NCBI GenBank assembly: GCA_031273145.1
Contig: JAISSL010000224.1
Span: 1 to 11,548, forward strand
Origin: Zoogloeaceae bacterium
GTDB taxonomy: Bacteria; Pseudomonadota; Gammaproteobacteria; Burkholderiales; Rhodocyclaceae
Length of the DNA stretch: 11,548 nt
Reading direction: 5' to 3'
Shown: positions 1 through 5,908 of the stretch, piece after piece
How the letters are laid out: each line of letters starts with the position of its first letter
Numbering within the stretch: the first letter of the stretch is position 1
Notes under the pieces: model-generated
Seen by the model: only the letters and a program-made list of their open reading frames with translations
What the model was told of the DNA's origin: nothing
The model's database searches: none
Made by a program: the position numbers and the translations under genes

Positions 1-1445
1 GGAAAATCATGCCCCTTGGCCAGCATCTGCGTCCCGACCAGAATATCCACTTCGCCCGCATGAATGCGCGTCAAAATGGCTTCCCACTGTTTGCGGCTCT
101 TGATGGAATCCCGGTCGACACGCAAAATTCGCGCTTCGGGAAATTGACCGGCAAGCGCCGCTTCGATGCGCTGCGTTCCTCGGCCAAAGGGTTGAATGTC
201 TCGATTGCCACAGGTAGGGCAAGACAGGGGAATTCTGGCTTCCAGGGCGCAGTGGTGGCAGCGTAGCCGCTTCTCCTCCAGATGCACGACCAGATTGGCC
301 GCGCAGCGCGGACAGTGGGAAATCCAGCCGCAGGCCGGACAGGCCAGCACTGGCGCAAATCCCCGCCGATTGAGAAAGACAAGGCTCTGCTCGCCCTTTT
401 GCAGCCTGATTCGCAACGCCTCCACGAGCGCCGGAGATAACCCTTCATTCAGCCGGATTTTGCGGGTATCAAGCATTCGCACTTCCGGCAGACGCGCAGC
501 GCGAATCGCCCGTTCCAGCAAGGTTACAAGCCGATAGCGCCCCTGCCTGGCATGTGCCCAGGTTTCCAGACTGGGCGTTGCCGAACCCAGTACAATGGGC
601 ATTTTGCCAAGGCTTGCGCGGTAGATGGCCAGGTCACGGGCGGAGTAACGCATCCCTTCCTGTTGCTTGTAGGAGAGGTCGTGCTCTTCATCCACAATGA
701 TTAACCCCAAATCGGGCAGCGGGGTAAAGACCGACAGGCGGGTTCCAACCACGATTCTGGCCTCTCCCAGAAAGGCGGACTTCCATGCCTTCTCCCGCGC
801 CGCTTCCGTAAGGCCGCTGTGCAGCATCACAATCGGCGTAGCATGAAAACGCGCCTGAATGCGCGTCTCCAACTGCGGCGTCAGATTGATTTCCGGGGTC
901 AGCACCAACGCCTGTCTGCCTTTTGCAAGCGCGTATTCAATTAAACGCAGATACACCTCGGTCTTGCCGCTCCCGGTCACGCCGTAGAGCAAAAAAGGCT
1001 GGAATCCCTCGGCAGCCACGATAGAAGCTACCGCTTCTGTCTGTTCCGGGTTCAGGTCGGGCACAGGCGGCGCTGCGGGTGGCATCGCAGCCGCGCGTTT
1101 TTTGGTTGCGCGGCGGGTGGCGGGATGAGGCTTTTTCAGGGCGGGCGGCAGCGCCTGATGAATCGCCTCGCCCAACGGCGCCTGATAATACTGCGCCGCG
1201 AATTCGCAGAGCCGGAAAAATTCCGGCGGCAACGGCGGCAAATCGTCCTCTACCCGTGCCGCTTCCTTCAACTGTTCAGGCGCAACTTCGCTCATCTCCG
1301 TAAAAGAGACGAGCACGCCGATTTTCTCCTGTCTGCCAAACGGAACCAACAGGCGAACTCCGGCCTTCAGCGCCGGATCATCGGCAACCCGATAATCAAA
1401 CAGGCGAGAGAGCGGCAAATCAAGCGCGATGCGGGCAATCGGCAT
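1..1445 (-). CDS. priA: PriA, primosomal replication restart helicase (partial, C-terminus beyond window)
   Basis: PriA is the 3'-to-5' superfamily 2 DNA helicase that recognises abandoned forks and reloads DnaB. Reading from the ATG at 1445 gives 481 codons before the window edge; the family is usually about 700-730 residues, so the C-terminal third is missing only because of the cut. Visible landmarks: N-terminal 3'-DNA-binding region (about 1-105), Walker A GVTGSGKT (155-162), LTPEINLTP (182-190), the DEEH box (252-255), GSATPSLE (287-294), eight zinc-binding cysteines in four CxxC pairs (369/372, 378/381, 396/399, 409/412), and GTQMLAKGHDF at the end. Between about 101 and 130 there is only a short basic, proline-rich linker where E. 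coli PriA has a winged-helix domain, so the ATPase begins about 70 residues earlier. A weak GGGGAAG lies 12 bases upstream of the ATG. Identification is firm; the exact start is less so. Confidence 0.95.
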   Translation of the reverse strand, partial: MPIARIALDLPLSRLFDYRVADDPALKAGVRLLVPFGRQEKIGVLVSFTEMSEVAPEQLKEAARVEDDLPPLPPEFFRLCEFAAQYYQAPLGEAIHQALPPALKKPHPATRRATKKRAAAMPPAAPPVPDLNPEQTEAVASIVAAEGFQPFLLYGVTGSGKTEVYLRLIEYALAKGRQALVLTPEINLTPQLETRIQARFHATPIVMLHSGLTEAAREKAWKSAFLGEARIVVGTRLSVFTPLPDLGLIIVDEEHDLSYKQQEGMRYSARDLAIYRASLGKMPIVLGSATPSLETWAHARQGRYRLVTLLERAIRAARLPEVRMLDTRKIRLNEGLSPALVEALRIRLQKGEQSLVFLNRRGFAPVLACPACGWISHCPRCAANLVVHLEEKRLRCHHCALEARIPLSCPTCGNRDIQPFGRGTQRIEAALAGQFPEARILRVDRDSIKSRKQWEAILTRIHAGEVDILVGTQMLAKGHDF

Positions 1446-1458
1446 GGCGGTTTGGTAC

Positions 1459-1500
1459 TTCCCCAAAGCTGTGGATAATTCTGTGAATAAAGACTTGAAA
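1459..1500. repeat. Copy 1 of duplicated double DnaA-box element
   Basis: This block reads CCCCAAAGC, a perfect reverse DnaA box, TCTG, a second box-like 9-mer, then a CTTGAAAAA tail. A closely similar block lies at 1866-1911, with the same box order and the same 12-bp offset between box starts. The block starts only about 15 bases upstream of the priA start, so DnaA bound here could also affect priA expression. That regulatory role is inference. Confidence 0.7.
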
Positions 1501-1541
1501 AAACCGGGCAAATCCCGTTTGCCGCAGAAGAGCCGGTTTTT
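1499..1541. repeat. Nested inverted repeat in the priA-hemE intergenic region
   Basis: AAAAACCGG (1499-1507) pairs with CCGGTTTTT (1533-1541). Inside it GGCAAA (1507-1512) pairs with TTTGCC (1518-1523) around a 5-base loop. The outer and inner arms share base 1507, so both cannot form completely at once. It lies directly beside the first DnaA-box pair. It could form a cruciform in DNA or a hairpin in priA-ward RNA. No function is assigned. Confidence 0.5.
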
Positions 1542-1615
1542 CCAGGAACCACATGCAAAACGAAAATCCTTGCAAAATCATGAGCTTAACGAAAGTCCAC
1601 AAAGTCAAGAAGGGA

Positions 1616-1657
1616 ATAGAAAAATTTTTTCGGGCGTTTGGGCAAAGATGTGTATAA
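1616..1657. repeat. AT-rich block plus DnaA box, unit 1 of 3
   Basis: An A5T6 tract (AAAAATTTTTT) is followed about 20 bases later by GATGTGTATAA, which contains the box TTATACACA on the minus strand. Related units lie at 1820-1861 and 2037-2078, giving a spacing of roughly 204 and 217 bp. Confidence 0.5.
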
Positions 1658-1819
1658 GACACAACCCCCTGCCTTCGGCGCAAAAAAGAAAACTGCGCGA
1701 CCAAAACGCAACCTGCCCCCCTTCTGGCGGGATGAAAAATGGGAGCAAAGCAAGGTGAATAGCGGCTTGCAGCGGTCATAGCCGGGCAGCTGAATTACCG
1801 CATTTTTCTCCAGCCGTTT

Positions 1820-1861
1820 CTTGAAATTTTCTCCAAGTGCTTGTGACGGCGATGTTTTTCA
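1820..1861. repeat. AT-rich block with decayed DnaA-box position, unit 2 of 3
   Basis: CTTGAAATTTTCTCC followed by CTTGTG, then GATGTTTTTC. It aligns by eye with the unit at 2037-2078 (CTTGAAAATTTTTTCC, CTTGTG, GATGTGCATAA), but the final DnaA box has been lost. Similarity is clear in the first 30 bases and weak after that. Confidence 0.45.
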
Positions 1862-1865
1862 GGTT

Positions 1866-1911
1866 TTCCCCCAAAAGCTGTGGATAAATCTGTGAATGAA
1901 TGCTTGAAAAA
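1866..1911. repeat. Copy 2 of duplicated double DnaA-box element
   Basis: CCCCCAAAAGC, a perfect reverse DnaA box at 1879-1887, then a weaker one at 1891-1899 and CTTGAAAAA. It is the partner of the block at 1459-1500, about 409 bp away. That is close to twice the spacing of the AT-rich units, as expected if the whole region grew by tandem duplication of a unit of about 205 bp. Confidence 0.65.
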
Positions 1912-2036
1912 GGCGAAAGCGCCATGCGCCATAAGGTCTTTCCTGCCCTTGCCGCAAAAATGACCAGTTTATGAAAGTTCTTCAAAATCAACGAGATATG
2001 AAGATTTTTTGCCTGTCAACACTCTTTTTCAGCCCT

Positions 2037-2078
2037 CTTGAAAATTTTTTCCTTGACTTGTGCGCGGGATGTGCATAA
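2037..2078. repeat. AT-rich block plus DnaA box, unit 3 of 3
   Basis: CTTGAAAATTTTTTCC followed by CTTGTG and GATGTGCATAA, with the box TTATGCACA on the minus strand at 2070-2078. It is the best-preserved partner of the units at 1616-1657 and 1820-1861. It ends 40 bases from the hemE stop codon. Confidence 0.5.
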
Positions 2079-2117
2079 ATCCGGGGGATACGCTCGGAAA
2101 ATCCGCGCATGAGCCTA

Positions 2118-3215
2118 TCATTGCCCCTGACAGGGCGTGCCGGTCGGGTAGTTGTGCACCGCATGAACCAGGGCGCGTACATGCTCCGGCGGGGTAAATT
2201 GGGAAATGCCATGCCCCAGGTTGAAGATGAGTCCGGTCATATCATTGCCCGCCGCCCCGTAGGAAGCAAGAACCTGGTTCGCTTCCCGAACAATCGTCTC
2301 TGGCGGCGCAAAGAGTACGCACGGGTCAAGATTGCCTTGCAGGGCAACCTGCCCGCCCACGCGCCGCCGCGCTTCGCCCAGATCAACCGTCCAATCCAGA
2401 CCGACCGCATCGCAACCGCTTTCTGCAATCCGCTCTAGCCAAAGCGCGCCGCCCTTGGTAAACAGGATGACCGGGATGGGTTCGCCGGCCTGTTCCCTGT
2501 GTAACCCGGCGACGATCTGCCGCATATAAGCCAGCGAAAATTCCTGATAAGCCGCGTTGGCAAGGGATCCGCCCCAGGTATCGAACAGCATGACGACCTG
2601 CGCGCCATTTTCAATCTGCGCGTTCAGATAGGCAATCACGGCCTTGCTGGTCACGTCCAGAATGCGGTGCAGCAGGTCGGGACGCGCATAGAGCATGGTC
2701 TTGACGTGGCGAAAATCCTTTGAGCCGCCGCCTTCGACCATGTAACAGGCCAGGGTGTAAGGACTGCCGGAAAAGCCGATCAGCGGCACTGCGTTATCCA
2801 GAGCCTTTCTGATCGTGAGGGTTGCGTCCAGCACATAGGCCAGACGATCATAGGGATCAGGCACATAAAGGGCGTTGATGGCCTGTTCTTCGCGCAAGGG
2901 GCGCTCGAACCGGGGGCCTTCCCCGGCTTCAAAATACAGCCCCAGCCCCATCGCGTCCGGCACGGTCAGAATGTCGGAAAACAGAATAGCCGCGTCTAAA
3001 TCGTAACGCGCCAAGGGTTGCAGAGTCACTTCACAGGCCAGATCGGCAGACTTGCACAGCGCCAGAAAGTCGCCCGCGCGTTTTCTGGTTTCGCAGTATT
3101 CAGGCAGATAGCGGCCTGCCTGTCGCATCAGCCAGATCGGGAGGCGCGTAACCGGCTGTTTCTTTAAGGCGCGAAGAAAATTGTCGTTTCTGGGGCGGGG
3201 CATGCGTTGGCTCAT
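2118..3215 (-). CDS. hemE: Uroporphyrinogen decarboxylase
   Basis: HemE is a cytosolic homodimer that removes four carboxyl groups from uroporphyrinogen III to give coproporphyrinogen III in haem synthesis. The 365-residue product has the family's usual length and TIM-barrel signatures: [15 protein letters not shown] (26-40) with the substrate-binding arginines at 31 and 35, ILFSDIL with the catalytic aspartate at 81, [13 protein letters not shown] (151-163), LFDTWGG (210-216), LQGNLDP (292-298) and FNLGHGI with the histidine at 335. The start [11 protein letters not shown] is chosen by family length; a second ATG at codon 5 is possible. Neither is preceded by a good Shine-Dalgarno, the upstream bases on the coding strand being pyrimidine-rich. 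It is separated from priA by the DnaA-box region and is divergent from the lipoprotein gene. Confidence 0.97.
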
Positions 3216-4192: not shown

Positions 4193-4220
4193 ATGCAGGG
4201 ACTAAATAGTCAGCCTGCAT
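4193..4220 (-). terminator. Hairpin overlapping the stop codon of the glycosyltransferase-like gene
   Basis: ATGCAGG (4193-4199) plus GACT (4200-4203) pairs with AGTC (4208-4211) plus CCTGCAT (4214-4220) around an AAAT loop, leaving a 2-base AG bulge. This gives 11 paired bases spanning the stop codon. On the minus strand only a short TTT follows the stem, so it is at best a weak terminator. It may instead protect the 3' end of the transcript. Confidence 0.4.
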
Positions 4221-5908
4221 ACCTTTTTGCCGTAAATAACTTCCACGCAAATCTGCGTGTCATTGTCGCAGTTTTCCCGTGATTTCAGAGTAACCCCCAA
4301 ACGATCCAAGATAGGCTCCAAATGAAATATCCTGACATTCCAGGAATGGTTTAAGTTTTCATTCTTGACATTCTGGCAAACTGGGTAAAACCCATTGTTT
4401 GAGATTTCATTGATGACTGTTTCTATTCTACGATTTTGCTGCAATGTACCCTTAAAATGAGCACCAAGCAGCAAAAAAGAATTCACGATTAAAATCGCAA
4501 ACATGGTATTGGCAACCCACCTGGATTTTTGGTCTTTGATATACAAAATCAGCAACGATACGGCTACAAACGTATGCAGTTGCGGATTGTATCGTGCCCA
4601 CCATGATTCTGGATTGATGATGGACAACACTGCAAGCAAAAAAACGAGTGGCGCGTACTCCTTGATTTTAGAGTAGCGCATCAGTAAACATACGAGGGTT
4701 ACCAGAAAAACTTCCCCGAATAGCGGCCCCCAGCCTCCCCATCTCACATCAGGCCAATAAAAGTTCTTTACCGCTCTCTTTAACTTTCTTTTTGAGAACT
4801 TGAATGGAATCTTTAACCCAGAAGGCTTGAAAGTATTTTCGGATTTTCCAAAGACACTCTTCACCAATTTGGAGAAACGATTCTTCTCATGGTATTTTTG
4901 TGTCAAATTGATTCCTCCCATCATGTTTACCTTGTTTTCCCCCATAGTGGGATGAAAAATATGATTGCCTTCAACCATGTTTTTCACATATGGGTTGACC
5001 ATTAATACAACGCCAATAATCAATATTGGAATGTATATTGCCAGCCTTGCGGCGGAAGACAAGTTGGGTTGGGTTGAGTTGGATCTGGTTTTAAATACCA
5101 AGTAAAAAGTTGCCACCGCAATGCACGAAGAAAATACAAATCCCGTGAACTTCAGGGAGGCGCAGCCGATCATGCCTGCAATGGCAAGAATCCAAAAGTC
5201 CATTGACCGTCTTACCCAGAAAAACCCATATAGCCCAATGATTGAGATAATCAAAAAGGCGCCCAAGGCACCATCTACATAATGGGTAAACAATTGGGTA
5301 ACCACTATCGGATTGAAAGTTAGTGCCACAGTGGCTAACCATCTCATGACTTTAGGTAAATCCGAGAGAGCAGACCATGCGGAAAACCCAAGTGAGAAGA
5401 GCAGTAGAAAATTGATGCTTTTCCCGTAATGAATATTCCCGGTCAGTTCGTAAATTGGCGCGGCATAAAGCCATGATAGTTTTGGATAGCTATTCATCCA
5501 AAGCACATTATTATACGGGAGTACTTCCGCCCAAAGCTCATTATCAACCGGATTGCTGCCCCCCAGTGTAGAGTGAAGAAAATCGAAATTTTCAGTGAGC
5601 GCCATGATTGCGCCCTGATGATAGGAAATACCATCCCAGAAAACATCAAACAGCAAATTGGACGCAATGAGAGAGAGCGCCAGAAAGAAAAAAGTCGCGA
5701 CAAGCGCCATAATCGCGCTGTTTAAACTGGAAAGCCTGTAAACAAAATAGAAAGCGCAACCCAAGCCAGCAAACCAGGAGGCAGATGTAATGTAGCTTGC
5801 AAAGCCGAAGCTCTTTGTGAGCGCAAAAAAGGACGCAGAACCCAATATGAAGAACAATATTGAGATAGCCGTCAGGGTCTGAATTTCGGTGGATTTTGCT
5901 GGCATCAT
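4202..5908 (-). CDS. Polytopic membrane protein, putative GT-C family glycosyltransferase
   Basis: 568 residues with many hydrophobic segments (about 12-30, 40-58, 65-87, 166-182, 190-208, 214-232, 238-256, 258-274, 290-305, 398-412, 418-432, 444-458, 466-482), so an inner-membrane protein. The first periplasmic loop holds DVFWDGISYH (88-97). An acidic residue in this position, after the first membrane helices, is typical of GT-C enzymes that use lipid-linked sugar donors, and WDGxxYH motifs occur in many uncharacterised members. A basic loop (about 340-385) and an ESWWARYNPQ motif (434-443) follow, then a soluble C-terminal domain with several cysteines (C534, C555, C563). Donor and acceptor are unknown. 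The start at 5908 is supported by AAGGA 7 bases upstream. The gene is clearly more AT-rich than its neighbours, lies 14 bases after hprK on the same strand and is flanked on the far side by an hprK remnant, all pointing to acquisition by transfer. Confidence 0.6.
   Translation of the reverse strand: MMPAKSTEIQTLTAISILFFILGSASFFALTKSFGFASYITSASWFAGLGCAFYFVYRLSSLNSAIMALVATFFFLALSLIASNLLFDVFWDGISYHQGAIMALTENFDFLHSTLGGSNPVDNELWAEVLPYNNVLWMNSYPKLSWLYAAPIYELTGNIHYGKSINFLLLFSLGFSAWSALSDLPKVMRWLATVALTFNPIVVTQLFTHYVDGALGAFLIISIIGLYGFFWVRRSMDFWILAIAGMIGCASLKFTGFVFSSCIAVATFYLVFKTRSNSTQPNLSSAARLAIYIPILIIGVVLMVNPYVKNMVEGNHIFHPTMGENKVNMMGGINLTQKYHEKNRFSKLVKSVFGKSENTFKPSGLKIPFKFSKRKLKRAVKNFYWPDVRWGGWGPLFGEVFLVTLVCLLMRYSKIKEYAPLVFLLAVLSIINPESWWARYNPQLHTFVAVSLLILYIKDQKSRWVANTMFAILIVNSFLLLGAHFKGTLQQNRRIETVINEISNNGFYPVCQNVKNENLNHSWNVRIFHLEPILDRLGVTLKSRENCDNDTQICVEVIYGKKVCRLTI

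Follow-up and report, generated by a model that had tools for sequence, protein, structure and literature searches.

The DNA analyzed here (the window) is the entire contig C206, 11,548 bases long, of a 1,980,479-base assembly (G000; 294 contigs, 86% complete). Family models identified priA, hemE, hprK, hpf, rpoN, lptB, and recA in the window. The hemE gene (2118–3215; TIGR01464 above cut-off) lies upstream of priA (3–1445; TIGR00595 above cut-off), which is truncated by the contig end, and both are on the minus strand, in agreement with the original prediction that they run in the same direction. The closest named proteins shown for the window HemE, in a list excluding its own genome and nearest kin, were those of Azonexus and Dechloromonas (75–76% identity). 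An AT-rich frame of 568 aa at 4202–5908 resembled a membrane protein and matched no NCBIfam family. Between hemE and priA lies a 672-bp intergenic region (1446–2117, minus strand), whose open frames come from a mechanical ORF listing; an Rfam search of the window gave no match.

The gap contains five TTATNCACA boxes on the minus strand, as originally claimed: two perfect TTATCCACA boxes (1470–1478 and 1879–1887) and three with one mismatch (1482–1490, 1649–1657, and 2070–2078). The weaker sixth box was also found, as TCATTCACA with two mismatches at 1891–1899. This density is beyond chance, as had been proposed: the whole window has eight DnaA-box matches when up to one mismatch is allowed, whereas shuffled sequences average 1.31 (none of 200 shuffles reached eight), and the gap holds 5 of the 28 TTATNCACA occurrences in the assembly (Poisson P of about 6e-13 for at least five in 672 bp). 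The AT-rich blocks attributed to the gap were borne out in part, since its G+C content is 46% against 55% in the window and some of the window's most AT-rich 60-mers fall inside it, but others lie in the gene at 4.2–5.9 kb.

The boxes in the gap are arranged as two tandem copies of one unit which, read from hemE to priA, consists of box1, an IHF-consensus site, box III, and box II. Copy A, all on the minus strand, comprises box1 TTATGCACA (2070–2078; one mismatch), the IHF-consensus site TATCTCGTTGATT (1986–1998; one mismatch) 80 bp past the box1 start, box III TCATTCACA (1891–1899; two mismatches), and a perfect box II TTATCCACA (1879–1887). Copy B, on the same strand, comprises box1 TTATACACA (1649–1657; one mismatch), the IHF-consensus site TAAGCTCATGATT (1576–1588; one mismatch) 69 bp past the box1 start, box III TTATTCACA (1482–1490; one mismatch), and a perfect box II TTATCCACA (1470–1478). 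In both copies, box III and box II are 12 bp apart and the IHF-consensus site is 110–111 bp from box II. A 42-nt direct repeat of 88% identity, unnoticed in the original prediction, marks the two units, its copies lying 409 bp apart (1870–1911 on the copy A side and 1461–1502 on the copy B side). The same two copies were present in the two nearest relatives, G012 and G017, which belong to the same genus. Since copies A of different species resembled each other more (similarity 0.72–0.78) than copies A and B within one genome (0.56–0.61), the duplication predates the species split; the value for the window, 0.56, compares with at most 0.52 in 200 shuffles. By eye, an AT tract follows box1 in both copies in all three genomes. 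Doubled elements were also found in other lineages, namely G042, Noviherbaspirillum, and Duganella, and most relatives had a single copy.

We searched relatives with the pattern TTATNCACAN{160,185}TTATCCACA, that is, TTATNCACA followed after 160 to 185 positions by TTATCCACA. Among 399 genomes of the order, 252 contained the pattern, as did 214 of 370 from the class, and its reversed control matched two genomes in each set; not every match need be this element, as one of the two in family f5 is the likely oriC. Among 80 loci of named HemE proteins, a priA match accompanied 33, and the box pair was found at 25 of these 33 against none of the other 47. The order hemE, element, priA was kept even in two genomes of about 0.8 Mb (G378 and G399). 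Altogether, 80 of 106 distinct regions upstream of priA contained the element, giving 88 elements; these 106 regions are a non-random sample (23 of the 80 were fetched with the pattern and 25 via HemE in named genomes), and the counts include related, non-independent species. The element was absent from seven priA upstream regions examined (G318, G034, G036, G049, G043, G046, and G050), indicating that it is dispensable. One of these, G318, is a complete genome from the window's family in which only about 100 bp, with no element, separate hemE from the adjacent priA, so the element can be lost. Variants of the arrangement were also seen: in family f10 (L299 and L300, genomes G044 and G336), the box pair occurs two or three times around priA, with one copy in G336 on the far side of priA, and two same-direction TTATCCACA boxes lie 163 bp apart in L294 and L295 (G009:C46 and G003:C157), enclosing an IHF-like stretch in G003. 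Among papers mentioning hemE, priA, and DnaA, we recognized no description of the element, most subscription papers being outside this search.

The 88 elements upstream of priA were then scanned for IHF sites with the consensus YAANNNNTTGATW, which we took as the IHF consensus. A site with at most one mismatch lay between the boxes in 68 of the 88 elements (9.8 in shuffles). The consensus was exact in 28 (shuffles, 0.4; opposite strand, 1) and had one mismatch in 40 (shuffles, 9.35; opposite strand, 17). The position of the site was nearly constant relative to box II, at 107–111 bp in 65 of 68, and its distance from box1 fell into classes of 56–57 bp (3 elements), 67–71 bp (33), 76–80 bp (27), and 88 bp (2), with three others. 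Correspondingly, the box-to-box distance was 175–180 bp in 46 elements and 184–191 bp in 34, and none fell at 181–183 or 192–196 bp; these gaps persisted when the pattern-fetched loci were left out. Such steps of about 11 bp suggest, with related species counted together, that the helix face of box1 matters. In 78 of the 88 elements, box III lay exactly at −12 from box II and had no more than two mismatches. An inverted box I was found exactly at +14 within two mismatches in 30 of 87, against zero to two at each of the other offsets from +9 to +30. All three core boxes were found in six of seven chosen class-level loci, with an IHF match at the usual place in three of the seven. A second full three-box core resembling DARS lies away from priA in G005, a genome of the window's genus (L296, G005:C38, 21800–24800, core near 23237); its upstream IHF match has two mismatches. 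The IHF consensus is also printed in PMC10380432.

The gene neighborhoods bear on whether the element serves priA. Under this explanation, the gap would be a priA promoter controlled by DnaA and IHF, in which a loop between box1 and boxes III/II would enclose the promoter and DnaA would set the supply of PriA. Of 30 pattern-fetched loci, 27 lay between hemE and priA, one by priA alone, and two by neither. In seven genomes (G002, G006, G007, G011, G015, G016, and G226), the element precedes priA but hemE is missing from the 900 bp upstream, and the more distant neighbors varied in at least four cases: one neighbor was common to G002, G011, and G015, and other frames were found in G007, G006, and G226. 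The element also precedes priA in the class-level genome G705. These loci favor a link to priA, although five of the seven hemE-less loci, all of which retain the box II/III part, lack a strict box1, which is present in G006 and G226, replaced by ATATNCACA in four, and missing from G007. Conversely, in G001 the full element adjoins hemE, and the gene that follows had no PriA match in tblastn and fits no NCBIfam family; other class genomes have the architecture next to rimO (G464 and G523) or a nuclease gene. A sigma-70 scan of window positions 1300–2300 gave a single match, on the plus strand and at chance level, and none on the minus strand, on which priA lies. In rearranged relatives, the element thus stays with priA or, once, with hemE; among the gene names in relatives, those of ylqF, the aspartate carbamoyltransferase gene, the OYE-family gene, rimO, the nuclease gene, and the G705 priA rest on family searches. 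Because the element is not tied to one gene, an autonomous site is favored over a priA promoter, strong as the priA association is, and we consider the promoter explanation unlikely. The G001 element, beside hemE without PriA, speaks against a pure priA promoter.

The original prediction offered the gap as a candidate chromosomal origin or DnaA-titration locus, partly by analogy with Caulobacter, in which hemE lies beside the origin. This analogy fails because seven relatives have the element upstream of priA without hemE in the adjoining 900 bp. The fragmentation of the window's own assembly into 294 contigs precludes a whole-genome skew, and the proposed check for a GC-skew minimum was run in five complete relatives (G039, G042, G024, G029, and G056), among which skew was clear in G039 and weak in G042. 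In G039, sampled across the whole chromosome, the skew changes at 1.695 Mb, where a cluster of six boxes lies beside the ylqF GTPase gene; the element, with hemE–priA at 0.14 Mb, is 1.55 Mb from the flip, and dnaA is found at 1.28 Mb. In G042, an oriC-like site with two TTATATATAAATAGTAGTAGTAG stretches by TTATCCACA lies at −48.5 kb, next to the aspartate carbamoyltransferase gene and close to a weak change in skew, and the doubled element is at −92 kb, 43 kb away; over the 220 kb read, the 20-kb bin at 0–20 kb ran contrary. This likely oriC is itself duplicated, with two AT-rich TAGTAGTAGTAG blocks by TTATCCACA about 400 bp apart (L279, 11200–11820). Coarse skew in G024 had pointed near hemE–priA (2.27 Mb), but with denser sampling the clearest change fell near 2.34 Mb, and skew was weak throughout. 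Both G039 and G042 thus offer better origin candidates than the hemE–priA gap.

TAGTAG repeats are found at origins; neither TAGTAG nor CTACTA occurs in window positions 1441–2125, and TAGTAG-like repeats are present at the −48.5-kb site of G042, between dnaA and dnaN in G030 and G026, and in G005 (C42). G026 and G030, both of the window's family, have an oriC-like site in the dnaA–dnaN gap. Within the genus, four genomes (G004, G005, G014, and G019) carry a related oriC-like site next to an OYE-family gene; G009 gave another match, and G003 one by pattern. This genus site (L338/L339 in G005:C42, L340, L341, L343, and L344) is homologous to the dnaA–dnaN site of G031 and appears to have moved away from dnaA; G009 carries two copies of it. 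In the window's genome, the dnaA contig ends inside dnaA, short of the dnaA–dnaN gap, and the stretch of it that was read contains no TTATNCACA. Upstream of this dnaA (L034, G000:C49), a gene that looks unrelated stands where rpmH would be expected.

Of the two functions first proposed for the gap, DnaA control is supported, in the form of a widely conserved DnaA–IHF element whose boxes are arranged as in DARS and datA, and the origin is not; the gap is unlikely to be the origin in the window's clade. A narrower version is that the doubled element captured initiation in the small clade of G000, G012, and G017. Nowhere else in G000 do two TTATNCACA fall within 1 kb of each other, and in G012 and G017 no TTATCCACA pair of this kind lies outside the gap; neither a homologue of the genus oriC-like site nor a close OYE homologue was detected in these three genomes, which share the duplication and the AT tract after box1 in both copies. 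However, no TAGTAG or CTACTA repeat adjoins a box, the G000 assembly is 86% complete, the likely origins of G039 and G042 are at other sites than the element, and doubling occurs also in G042, Noviherbaspirillum, and Duganella. Moreover, G007, G011, and G016 lack a doubled element and likewise gave no match to the oriC homologue, so its absence may reflect divergence. We regard such a capture as very unlikely. Finally, a cluster that simply titrates DnaA and forms no defined nucleoprotein structure would account for the several high-affinity boxes of this non-coding gap, including 5 of the 28 TTATNCACA of the assembly, but would need no fixed IHF position, no fixed III/II spacing, and no roughly helical stepping of box1, and is highly improbable.

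Together, these results indicate, with a probability of roughly 70%, that the gap consists of two tandem copies of an autonomous DnaA–IHF control element and is not a chromosomal origin. Judged from the sequence, the window locus is most likely a doubled locus controlling the nucleotide state of DnaA. Several observations count against this reading: box I is degenerate in both window copies and within two mismatches in just 30 of 87 elements, each of the window's IHF sites has a mismatch, the IHF-like site of DARS2 is spaced differently, only three of the seven class-level loci have the IHF match in place, and some priA upstream regions lack the element. In the predicted mechanism, IHF would bend the DNA so that DnaA at box1 meets DnaA at boxes III/II; the resulting complex would shift the nucleotide state of DnaA, as E. 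coli DARS2 or datA does, and change the supply of active DnaA-ATP, and two copies near origin-proximal genes would double the dose. The boxes, their spacing, conservation, and duplication, and the association with either neighboring gene were observed in the sequences; protein binding, the loop, and the direction of the effect on DnaA are inferred. The doubled copies would constitute a natural dosage experiment. One spacing rule finds such elements in more than half of the sampled order and class genomes, which would make DnaA control testable outside E. coli, and an origin label on this window would mislead annotation.

In E. coli, initiation is tuned by the datA and DARS loci, and DARS2 combines a Fis site with ADP–ATP exchange on DnaA. 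We compared the element with E. coli datA, oriC, DARS1, and DARS2, fetched at what we took to be their coordinates. In the core of DARS1 and DARS2, boxes II and III are 12 bp apart and an inverted box I lies 14 bp from box II, the same positions and orientations as in the element. The window likewise has boxes II and III in direct orientation 12 bp apart, with box II perfect in both copies and box III carrying two (A) or one (B) mismatches. By contrast, the box I positions of the window (1865–1873 in copy A and 1456–1464 in copy B, minus strand) are degenerate, with three and five mismatches, and we therefore did not file the window as DARS. The IHF-like site of DARS2 is on the same side as in the element, 99 bp from box II compared with 107–111 bp. 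DARS2 lacks the direct distal box1 and instead has an inverted TTATCCACA 98 bp beyond its IHF-like site, and the gene neighbors of DARS1 and DARS2 are unlike those of the element. A review describes DARS-like sequences in many proteobacteria (PMC10380432), while another paper associates the core of DARS2 with E. coli relatives (PMC4245941).

The layout of E. coli datA, in which box 2 is followed after 65 bp by IHF and after a further 97 bp by box 3, has the same orientation as the element. The corresponding distances in the window are close to these, at 69 and 98 bp in copy B and 80 and 99 bp in copy A, which is thus about one helical turn longer on one side, and box III of copy B is identical to datA box 3. 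The two differ in the box that lies 12 bp past box 3, which is inverted in datA and takes the place of the element's direct box II, and in the datA neighborhood of tRNA-Gly and queG. PMC10380432 and PMC5742627 associate datA with a low-affinity box 7 and DnaA-ATP hydrolysis. To the reading of the element as datA-like, the DARS core match added a second comparison. With proteobacterial oriC, the element shares clustered DnaA boxes in a non-coding gap, AT-rich stretches, and an IHF-like site; the window element lacks the TAGTAG/CTACTA repeat beside a box, and E. coli oriC lacks the element's box/IHF layout.

Because boxes II and III keep the spacing of the DARS core, DnaA reactivation is the likeliest activity of the element in the order at large. 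In the window's clade, inactivation or plain titration appears about as likely as reactivation, since box I has degenerated there and the spacing of copy B resembles that of datA. E. coli datA and DARS2 act on DnaA in opposite directions, and through the geometry that the element shares with both datA and DARS one could examine why such a site switches DnaA on or off. We tentatively raise the possibility, itself rather doubtful, that one ancestral DnaA–IHF switch (box1, IHF, III, II, inverted I) extends across the Beta- and Gammaproteobacteria and that E. coli datA and DARS2 are its diverged descendants. If so, the window copy would be a doubled living relative of that switch, in which one side has the spacing of datA and the other that of DARS.
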